This document shows, one piece after another, positions 52,140-60,425 of a DNA stretch of 60,608 nt. Under the pieces are notes generated by a model. That model was given only the letters and a program-made list of their open reading frames with translations. It was not told where the DNA came from and made no database searches. This DNA comes from Bacteroidota bacterium (GTDB taxonomy: Bacteria > Bacteroidota > Bacteroidia > Chitinophagales > UBA8649). The stretch spans positions 1 to 60,608 of the forward strand of contig PKDX01000011.1 in assembly GCA_002862745.1 (NCBI GenBank), written 5' to 3'. Both the position numbers and the translations under genes were made by a program. Every line of letters starts with the position of its first letter. Position 1 is the stretch's first letter.

Positions 52140-52865
52140 TCAGCCTTTGCGAAGCTTAAATCGATCTCCTAGATATATTTTTTTCGCCAATGGGTTTTCG
52201 GCTAATTGTTGCGGGCTTCCCTCAGCGAACACTTTTCCCTCGTGCATTAAGTAAGCCCGGTCGACGATGTTCAGTGTTTCCTGAACGTTATGGTCCGTAA
52301 TCAATACACCAAGACCTAGAGATTTAAGTTTTACCACTATTCGCTGAATCGCTTCGACAGCAATTGGATCAATTCCTGCGAAGGGTTCATCGAGCAAAAC
52401 ATAGGATGGGCTGCTTGCTAGCGCTCGTGCTATCTCGGTCCTGCGTCTCTCCCCTCCTGAAAGCAGACCTCCTTTTGTCTTGCGCACATGACCCAAGTCA
52501 AACTCAGCAATCAACTGGTCACACTTTTCTTGGCGCTCCTTTTTTGATTTTACATGAAATTCAATAACGGCCATTAAGTTATCTTCCACCGAGAGGTGCC
52601 TGTATACCGACGCCTCCTGGGGTAAGTAGGTTATGCCCATCCGAGCTCTTTTATACATGGGCTTTGTTGTAATATCTACCATGTCAAGTTCGACCGACCC
52701 CTCATCCGGTTTTACTAGTCCAACAATCATATTAAATGTTGTTGTCTTCCCCGCCCCGTTGGGCCCCAAAAGGCCTACCACCTCCCCTTGATTTACACAA
52801 AAGCTCACCTTGTCAACAACAATTCGCCGGCCATATTTTTTTGTAAGACCTTGGTTTTCAATCAT
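52140..52865 (-). CDS. lptB: LPS export ABC transporter ATP-binding protein
   Basis: A 241-residue ATPase. Walker A is [13 protein letters not shown], the signature motif [15 protein letters not shown], Walker [15 protein letters not shown] and the switch His in VLITDHNV. LptB2 drives lipopolysaccharide from the inner membrane through LptFG to LptC, LptA and LptD (lptD at 14172 and an OstA-like at 18938). It overlaps the Ig-like lipoprotein gene by 8 nt and is the last gene of the minus-strand run starting at DUF4175. No LptF/G gene is in the window. Confidence 0.95.
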
Positions 52866-54198
52866 TTATAAAGTTTATCAATTCTGCGCTTTGTAGGGTT
52901 TTGGTAACTAAAAATTCTTGTTGTGCGCCTATTCCATACACATAATACAAAACCATGTTGTTTTCTACACTAGGGGTAAAGATAGCATAGCTCGGTTCTC
53001 CATAAAACGAATATATAACGCCTTCTCTATAGATATCACTCATTAAGAGTTCTCCATTGTCCGTAAACACATCGACATGTAGATTATCTGGCATGGTGGC
53101 GGTATCGCTTGGCAACGAAAACGTGACAAAATATAGTCCGGCATATCCACTTGACAATCCTTCGTTTTGAATTAGCGAATCAAGATCGTTAGAGGGTATA
53201 GAAAGCAAATAAGGAAGATTCTTAGCATTCTGATTTGTGTCTTTATTGCTGGCTAGCGTTGTATCAGAGACGAGAACTAGTGCCTGTACCGTATCCGAAC
53301 TGTATGTGCCAGTCATAGAGGCCAAAATCAGTTGCTGATTACTATCAACAGGCATCGTGTTTTCTACATCCTTTATACAAGCGTAGACCGTGTCGTGGCC
53401 CCAGCTATAGGTAGAAAAACTAAACCCATTTTCCCGGGCAATAGAATCCCAAGTATCCTGATTGGGTTTGGGGTGAATCATAAAACATTCATCAGCAACA
53501 GGATCAATTGTTGCTGGGCTTCTTAAGGGTGAATGAATGATCGTTTCGTTGCTTCCATCAAAAGACAGGGAAAGTTTGTTTTGGCGCTCAAAAGAGTCTG
53601 CAGTTCCGTTTGAGTTAGCATCCCAATACCATGTGTACGCGTAATCCCATGAGTTCTGCATATGATCTAAGCGACCCCTGAGTCTATTGTTTTTACGCAG
53701 TGGATAAGTTAAGGGTGGATTATCACTTTGAATTGAAGAGGAAAAAGTTGTTAAGTCAAGGTTCGGTGGAAGTATCGTAGTAGAATATGATACCGAATTA
53801 CTAGGAAGAAGGCCATATGTTGTGATCCATATCGATTGGGGCGGATATATGTTTCCCTCATTGTAGTCCTTTATAGCATCTTCTATAAGCAGATTATATG
53901 CTACTCCTCTTGTGATTTCTTCTATAGAAAGAATAAGTGATCGCCCACGTAATTCAATGGAGATAGGTGTTTGTGGAAAAACCTGTATGTTTTGCTTTTG
54001 TATCGGCTGAAGGTGTTCGTCAAAAGCCCATATCAGTTTCTCTCCAGCATAATTCACAATGGTGTCTTTGGGGGAAACTAGAGCAAGAGGTGGAGAGGTG
54101 TCCTTGGGCCCACCTGTGGGGGCAAAGGGGTTGGCACAACGTGATAAGGTGATTAGAAAACCAGCTGCCACAAAAAGTCTCATCCCGCGAAAAAACAT
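52858..54198 (-). CDS. lipoprotein with Ig-like (Big_5) domain, Bacteroidota type
   Basis: A 446-residue protein. From the ATG at 54198 a lipoprotein signal fits, with the hydrophobic segment ending [13 protein letters not shown] Bacteroidota pattern follows: [18 protein letters not shown], then an Ig-like part with [10 protein letters not shown] and the [14 protein letters not shown] strand. The remainder is a long beta-rich region with a calcium-loop-like [14 protein letters not shown] near residue 210. The function is unknown; it lies between mnmG (4-nt gap) and lptB (8-nt overlap), so a cell-envelope role is likely. The C-terminal half lacks any enzyme motif I recognise. Confidence 0.8.
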
Positions 54199-54202
54199 AG
54201 CC

Positions 54203-56062
54203 CTAGGATAGGTAAATTGATAGTGCCGTAATATCGCTTGCAGAAACACCACTGATTTGCTGCGCCTCTCCTAGCGTGGACGGCTTAAATTGCTTGAGCT
54301 TTTCCCTTGCCTCTTTAGATAGAGAGGGCATGTCGTCAAAATTAACCGTTGGCTTAATCTTGACCTTAGCCAGGCTTTGTAAACGCTTAACATTTTCTGC
54401 CTCCCGTGCTATATATCCCGAATATTTATGTTCGATTTCCGCAGTTTGAATAAAATGTGGGCGTTTTCCTTCTACAAGCGTCGCCAATTCATTGCAATAA
54501 GGCACTAAATCCTGTGTGTTTATGCCTGGCCTTGCCAGGATCTTTTCTAGTTTCATGCTTTGCCGTATTGGGTTTTGACCTCGTTCTTGAAGTAAGGAGT
54601 TTATGTCTTCTGGCCGTATCGATGTTTTATAAATACAGTCATTATAATCCTTGATAAAAAGAGCCTTTGCACGATACAGTTGAATTGACTCGGGTGATAG
54701 AAGGTTGTGTTTTTGAGCTATTGGCATTAACCGCACATCCGCATTGTCCTGACGCAAGGAAAGCCTAAATTCAGCGCGCGAAGTAAACATTCTATACGGC
54801 TCATTGGTGCCTTTGAATACAAGATCGTTGATAAGAACTCCAATGTATGCCTCTGATCGTTCAAGAATAAGAGAAGATTGACCAAGTACACTCAACGCCG
54901 CATTAATACCAGCCATAAGGCCCTGGCATGCAGCCTCTTCATAACCTGTTGTTCCGTTAATTTGACCCGCAAAGTAAAGTCCTATAATGGCTCTTGTTTC
55001 TAACGTTTGTTTTATCTGGTCCGGTGGAAAATAGTCATACTCAATAGCATAGCCTGGGCGAAACATTTTCGCCTTTTCTAAGCCAGGAATCGTGTATAGG
55101 GCCTCGAGCTGAGTTGAAAACGGGAGGGACGTTGAAAAACCATTTAAATAGGTTTCCACGGTATCTATCCCTTCTGGTTCAACAAAAATTTGGTGACGAT
55201 CTCTTTCACTAAAGCGATCGATCTTGTCCTCTATAGATGGACAGTATCGAGGACCCCTGCCTTCAATTCTACCAGAAAACATGGGTGATTTGCTAAAATC
55301 CCTTCGCAAAATATCGTGCGTTTGAGGATTGGTATAGGTTATATAGCAATGCCTTCTTTCTTGAAACAATTCGCTTGCTCCATAAGAAAACACCTCTGTG
55401 GGCTCTTCGCTTGGTTGTATTTCCATAGAAGAATAATCAATGGTTCTTCCATCTATTCTTGGCGGCGTGCCTGTTTTCATTCTTCCCGTAACAAAACCCC
55501 AATCACGCAATTGCCCACTTAGGCCTATTGAGGCTGATTCTCCTGCTCGACCAGATTTTCTTTGTTCCTCCCCTACATGAATAACACCACCAAGAAAGGT
55601 TCCCCCGGTAATAACAACCTTTTCCGCACGAATAGATAGGCCAGAGCGACACACCACTCCAGTAACCCTATCATTTTCTTTTTCTAGGCCAACCACCTCA
55701 TCTTGCCAAAAATTCAGGTTACTGGTATTTTCTAGCTCCGTGCGCCAAATCCTTGCAAAGAGGTGGCGGTCGTTTTGCGTTCTAGGGCTGTGCATGGCAG
55801 GCCCCTTTGATCTATTCAACATTCGGAAATGAAGCATAGAACGATCAGCAACTTTCCCTGAAAAACCGCCCAAAGCATCTATTTCCCGAACAATTTGGCC
55901 TTTGGCAACTCCACCCATTGCGGGATTGCAGGACATCTGACCAATGGCTTGCATATTCATGGTTATTAGGAGGGTTTTTGCACCCAATCGTGCGGAGATT
56001 CTCGAGGCCTCACAACCCGCATGACCACCACCCACTACAATAACATCGTACGTATCCATCAT
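54203..56062 (-). CDS. mnmG: tRNA uridine-5-carboxymethylaminomethyl modification enzyme MnmG
   Basis: A 619-residue FAD protein (GidA) that with MnmE modifies U34 of several tRNAs. Motifs: [21 protein letters not shown] (shortened core GGGHAGCEA), [61 protein letters not shown] and the [15 protein letters not shown] part. The C-terminal helical domain ends with [15 protein letters not shown]. The start overlaps the ybeY stop by 4 nt. A perfect parS-type palindrome lies 16-31 nt upstream, inside ybeY. Confidence 0.97.
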
Positions 56063-56490
56063 AGCGATTGGGATTTATGTTCCACGTGGAACAATTCAAG
56101 CAACCTGTTTTCCTCTAAGTGCATAATCCTCTTCTCTTTCTTACTTCCGTCGGTATACCCCACTACGTGTAATAAGCCATGAAAAACCATACGAAGTATA
56201 TAAGACAGGGGCCTTTCGTTGTCTTCTAAAAAAACATTTGTACCATTAATAAACAACTCTAAGTGTCTTCCCATTGGTGTTTCCCTTTCTTGGGTAATAA
56301 CGTCTGTATTGTGTTGGTGATTGAGTAAGGACGTGTTGTGTCTTGTTTGGCTCGCACTATCCGTTAAAATGATGTCAATGCCTCGCAAGGACAGATCGTA
56401 TTCTTGGCAAAAGATGGTTAAGGCCTCTTTTATCTCTCGAACAGTTATTGAGAACTCTGGATTGCCGTCGCGTAATACACGCACAAACAT
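56059..56490 (-). CDS. ybeY: endoribonuclease YbeY (rRNA maturation)
   Basis: A 143-residue metalloprotein of the UPF0054 family, needed for 16S rRNA 3'-end maturation and rRNA quality control. The zinc site is seen in [17 protein letters not shown]: the first two His of the H-x3-H-x5-H motif are present, but the third position is Asp, a substitution I also recall in other Bacteroidota. The C-terminal tail [14 protein letters not shown] carries the parS-like palindrome in its codons. It lies 9 nt after the HATPase gene and overlaps mnmG by 4 nt. Confidence 0.92.
56078..56093. other. parS-type ParB binding site (perfect 16-bp palindrome)
   Basis: TGTTCCACGTGGAACA is a perfect palindrome that matches the bacterial parS consensus TGTTnCACGTGAAACA at 14 or more of 16 positions and is the form reported for Pseudomonas-type sites. 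It lies within the last codons of ybeY (residues FHVEH), 16 nt upstream of the mnmG start. parS sites cluster near the replication origin. ParB and ParA are not in the window, so binding is inferred. Confidence 0.8.
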
Positions 56491-60077: not shown

Positions 60078-60425
60078 TATCTTAAGCTATTAACATATGT
60101 TGTTAATTACAACGTTAAAAGTACTTGCTTGATGTGGATATAGCTTGTAAAATTGAAATTGTAAATAATTGGTGGTTGAATTCTTGACTTTTCACCATTT
60201 AACAAACTTTCTTTCCACAATTCATATTTCAACAATTACTTTTTGGTTTTGAATTCACGGTGTGTTGATTATTATCAATTTTGCCTGAATAAGTAAACTT
60301 CATAGATGGAACAAAAGTTAACTTAGTGTTTGAAAGGTGTGAATCATAGGGATTGAGTAGAGTACTCCACATAATAACACACTTAATGATGACTATAGTT
60401 TTTTAAATGAAAGATTTTAATCATT
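60078..60425. other. AT-rich intergenic region between DUF4175 and the kynA-like start
   Basis: About 348 nt without a credible gene. It is divergent between the two flanking genes. A cluster of short dyads is close to the DUF4175 start (separate entry). I see no tRNA, no strong TTG/TAnnTTTG promoter pair and no cluster of DnaA boxes; TTTCCACA-like bases at about 60213 do not form a group. Confidence 0.6.
60090..60117. promoter_or_regulatory. cluster of overlapping short dyads upstream of the DUF4175 gene
   Basis: TTAACA/TGTTAA (60090-60106) flanks the 10-bp palindrome AACATATGTT. GTTGT/ACAAC (60099-60113) overlaps it, and AACGTT (60112-60117) follows. The group is 13-40 nt before the DUF4175 start codon, a fitting place for an operator, but AT-rich sequence makes chance matches common. 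Confidence 0.3.

Follow-up and report, generated by a model that had tools for sequence, protein, structure and literature searches.

The window, i.e., the whole stretch of 60,608 nucleotides that was analysed, contains adjacent ybeY and mnmG genes and a putative parS site embedded in the last codons of ybeY (Table 1). The ybeY product was recognised by Pfam with a score of 34 bits against a cut-off of 25 bits. The ybeY stop and the mnmG start share four bases, thus 16 bp lie between the end of the site and the downstream mnmG start. The original prediction placed the site in the coding tail of ybeY just before mnmG, where it would encode FHVEH, and translation together with the positions of the open reading frames confirmed this reading near the YbeY C-terminus. 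In YbeY itself, the usual third zinc-binding histidine is replaced, and the resulting pattern HGxLHxxGxxD was also present in the related ybeY genes examined. Between mnmG and an ABC ATPase gene lies an open reading frame for 464 amino acids (52858-54252) that had no Pfam match; its identity between congeners is about 70 %, against about 90 % for the neighbouring genes.

Table 1 Features of the ybeY-mnmG locus and of the nearby AT-rich region
Feature	Position	Strand	Basis or remark
mnmG (gidA), gene anchoring parS across the phylum	54203..56062	-	ORF, Pfam GIDA, distances
ybeY, last codons carry parS	56059..56490	-	ORF, translation, Pfam PF02130
parS site TGTTCCACGTGGAACA, putative ParB nucleation site	56078..56093		unique in genome, junction conserved, mnmG-anchored across the order
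AT-rich (27-30% GC) conserved intergenic region, tentative oriC candidate	60078..60425		4 kb from parS

The site is a perfectly self-complementary 16-mer, the sole perfect 16-bp palindrome of the window. It shows zero mismatches to TGTTNCACGTGNAACA, which Livny et al. in 2007 reportedly gave as the chromosomal parS consensus of ParABS systems. Chance alone should produce about 1.0 perfect 16-bp palindrome, whatever its sequence, per 60 kb, hence the evidence lies in the match to the parS word rather than in the palindromy. From base composition, the expected number of exact copies of TGTTCCACGTGGAACA is 1.2e-5 for the window and 4e-4 for the genome, so that the predicted match to the consensus and its improbability by chance were both borne out. 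With up to two mismatches allowed, the window yielded just this match; chance matches at this threshold had a mean of 0.22 in the window, with at least one in 21 of 100 shuffles. Across the whole draft genome (2,060,357 bp in 72 contigs, 99% complete), one match was obtained with up to one mismatch, again TGTTCCACGTGGAACA. The genome scan proposed with the prediction thus returned a single copy, but its second part, a location near dnaA or parAB, did not hold: dnaA is on contig C12 and parB on contig C34, neither of them on the parS contig.

The partition proteins, on which the prediction had been made to depend, are encoded in the genome. A parA-parB operon was found on contig C34, and SMC and ScpA are also encoded. 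The ParB protein of this operon, the one ParB-family protein found in the genome, has the Pfam domains ParB_N, HTH_ParB and ParB_C, and among its sequence relatives of known structure are Spo0J (1vz0, 6sdk) and ParB (4umk, 6t1f). In an alignment to Noc it carries R-Y-K-G at the Caulobacter positions 173/179/184/201. RXXG is the parS-binding residue type, in which the R and G positions contact parS and differ in Noc (PMC7383237); the equivalents of R173 and G201 are both present. At two further parS-contacting positions, the protein has His for Caulobacter Gln162 and Lys for Ser172.

The conservation expected in relatives was found at the ybeY-mnmG junction of both congeners and, linked to mnmG, across the order. 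The two congeneric genomes (G300, G301) keep the exact 16-mer at the same place in the ybeY tail. It lies in a run of 17 nucleotides identical in all three genomes, while the flanking codons vary and the remainder of ybeY shows 73% three-way identity. Five codons for identical amino acids would all stay unchanged within the genus with a chance of about 0.05; taken from the genus alone, conservation at the DNA level is weakly indicated. Two other genera of the same family have paired GTTTCACGTGAAAC sites, in one genome (G299) at the ybeY-mnmG junction and in the other (G297) about 1.4 kb past the 3' end of mnmG. Within the order, GTTNCACGTGNAAC was present in 89 of 120 genomes. Among the matches listed, all 37 genomes with both sites and mnmG had one or more sites no further than 3 kb from mnmG, a position that a single site would take by chance in about 0.2% of cases. 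Relative to mnmG, 71 of the sites among the matches listed were upstream, 2 inside and 3 downstream, and the usual distance from the mnmG start in these matches was at most 150 bp. A parS word with one mismatch, such as TGTTCCATGTGGAACA, was observed at about half of 20 junctions that had been picked for the absence of the exact parS pattern. In the genus g166 (L228, L229, L234, L235, L240, L241), the mnmG-adjacent sites are a shared variant, TGTTCCATGTGGAACA or similar, which suggests that the parS word has shifted in this lineage, perhaps with a co-evolved ParB. A pair of parS sites, spaced by about 1.9 kb, exactly flanks mnmG in L019, L020, L022-L025 and other Flavobacteriaceae-like genomes. 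The ybeY-mnmG junction also occurs in named records, e.g., Flavobacterium soli, Olleya, Salinimicrobium and Chitinophaga, and these records, like the gene content, point to Bacteroidota as the phylum.

As control, 30 ybeY loci were drawn from the class without regard to parS. A parS-like site was present at 13 of the 17 loci adjacent to mnmG, but at only 1 of the 13 non-adjacent loci (one-sided hypergeometric p about 2e-4). Judged from these gene neighbourhoods, the association of parS is with mnmG, not with ybeY.

How the site relates to the ybeY reading frame differs between lineages. In many of them it starts 1-3 bases past the ybeY stop; in others, ybeY coding runs through it. Most of the coding overlaps read FHV[EK][HQLP], yet one tail (L315) reads VSRET, and another (L318) contains two sites, read VPRGT and FHVE. 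Overall, two frames are used, giving FHV[EK] or V[PS]R[GE]T, and YbeY tails without the site are also without FHVE. The same DNA with differing peptides argues for selection on the DNA and not on the peptide. One would otherwise have to assume that the FHVEH codons of a conserved peptide merely happen to spell parS. The five unchanged codons of the genus could indeed be a matter of chance, at the frequency given above, but against this explanation stand the minute number of copies expected in the genome, the recurrence of the same DNA behind the ybeY stop in five loci (L003, L068, L078, L102, L150), the use of two frames in the coding tails and the loss of FHVE where the site is missing. We consider a chance palindrome extremely improbable, and on the evidence of frame and position the chance and the peptide-conservation readings were both rejected. 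The idea that the coding tail had been shaped by the DNA signal is supported: in the two congeners, the 16-mer is kept while flanking codons change, and across relatives the ybeY tail has accommodated the site in either frame or ends before it.

The proximity to the replication origin, also part of the original prediction, was retained in part. Of five complete relatives sampled, three have the GC skew minimum at the site, namely G269 of the same order, G197 and G133; in the other two (G225, G032), the skew was weak and gave no placement of the minimum relative to the site. In G269, the site is at 631 kb, with a sampled change of skew sign between 608 and 660 kb and a local cumulative minimum at 640.66 kb. 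In G197, the site is at 1.553 Mb and the flip between 1.40 and 1.575 Mb; in G133, the site is at 1.587 Mb and the cumulative minimum near 1.63 Mb. The expected neighbourhood of dnaA and parAB was not observed: circular distances from the site to parB and dnaA were 0.74 and 1.43 Mb in G269, 1.03 and 1.55 Mb in G197, 0.84 and 1.70 Mb in G133, and 1.55 and 1.91 Mb in G225, i.e., about 0.7-1.9 Mb. As these genes are distant from parS, a test for a position near dnaA or parAB misleads in this phylum. For gut bacteria it has been reported that the origin is not systematically located at dnaA, and parS clusters and skew were used instead (PMC10197239). A cluster of six DnaA-box-like sequences was located at 640221-640509 of the G269 chromosome (G269:C1, L198), at the skew minimum, 9 kb from parS. 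Situated 1.43 Mb from dnaA, this cluster is a good oriC candidate.

For the genome of the window, we infer the origin proximity of parS from these relatives, because its 72 draft contigs cannot be ordered. On the congener contigs, no local skew flip was detected at parS; the minimum of G300 was 14 kb further right. Close to the site, an AT-rich intergenic region lies between a gene for 1049 amino acids and a tryptophan-dioxygenase-like gene, and it is conserved in both congeners. It contains TGTGGATAT at 60133-60141, which occurs twice also in the DnaA-box cluster at the G269 skew minimum. A DnaA-box scan of the window revealed no excess, with 14 boxes found against 16.4 expected, and the region at 60.1-60.4 kb is consequently just a candidate origin.

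Taken together, the sequence comparisons make it very probable that TGTTCCACGTGGAACA is a true parS of the chromosome and probably the sole strong one of the genome, at which ParB would act in origin segregation. ParB nucleation, the CTP clamp, spreading and ParA-driven movement are established ParABS biology (PMC7333895). By analogy, binding, spreading and segregation at TGTTCCACGTGGAACA are the most likely events in the host organism: the ParB encoded on C34 would bind the site, load as a CTP-dependent sliding clamp, spread across ybeY, mnmG and their neighbours and pass the freshly copied origin region on to ParA, which would segregate it. Loading of SMC-ScpAB at parS is likewise probable. 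In P. aeruginosa, a single parS near oriC suffices (PMC4368675), which makes a single site plausible for the genome of the window. The site would have been retained at ybeY-mnmG because this junction is origin-proximal, and, as intergenic space was lost in the genus, the end of ybeY now codes through parS.

A role in gene expression has to be weighed against segregation. The site could be an operator through which a transcription factor or ParB chiefly controls mnmG, with segregation being secondary. Its short distance to the mnmG start, here and usually in the relatives among the matches listed, would suit an operator, and in other bacteria ParB is able to influence genes located close to parS (PMC7022226; PMC5521831). 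However, the sequence is identical to the canonical parS word, and in some relatives the site is located on the downstream side of mnmG or at a distance of about 2 kb, as in G297 and in the flanking pairs of L019-L025. Such downstream, distant or flanking sites suit an origin marker more readily than they do an operator, and we regard a primarily regulatory function as very unlikely. An influence of ParB on the transcription of mnmG or lptB, as proposed with the original prediction, is possible but unsupported.

Both parS and intragenic parS sites are known elements. A literature search that did not cover the survey of Livny et al. 2007 returned no statement of a phylum-wide anchoring at ybeY-mnmG or of an overlap in several frames. 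We lean, by a modest degree of confidence, towards a general picture in which the centromere of the phylum is tied to mnmG and not to parAB or dnaA, parS kept its place at the origin-side ybeY-mnmG junction when the partition and initiator genes were separated from it, ybeY was in several lineages repeatedly extended through parS in any frame that happened to be open, and in the genus of the window one intragenic site may be the whole centromere. The mnmG-linked parS would offer a cheap sequence-only marker of origin and centromere where dnaA misleads, as well as a clear case of a protein end shaped by an overlapping DNA signal. It raises the question why parS remains with mnmG once parAB has moved elsewhere.

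Among the known systems, Noc and its binding site NBS resemble the present case in a 16-bp palindrome bound by a protein of the ParB family. In each half, the NBS departs from parS at two positions (PMC7383237), whereas the sequence at 56078-56093 is that of parS, and the lone ParB has R...G and not the Q...R of Noc. A Noc/NBS system was rejected as candidate on the parS sequence and on the single ParB with R-Y-K-G in place of the Q...K...K...R of Noc. The chromosomal parS sites of ParABS systems are matched in the perfect consensus, in a genome equipped with ParA, ParB and SMC-ScpA, and in the origin-proximal position seen in three of the five complete relatives. The window site differs from them in being anchored at ybeY-mnmG with parAB and dnaA distant, and in being apparently the single strong site of its genome. 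With the intragenic parS sites of P. aeruginosa (PMC4368675), it shares the embedding in protein-coding sequence; unlike in those sites, the overlap in the window is confined to the extreme 3' end of the gene and fixed beside mnmG, and sites of this type are read in different frames depending on the lineage.
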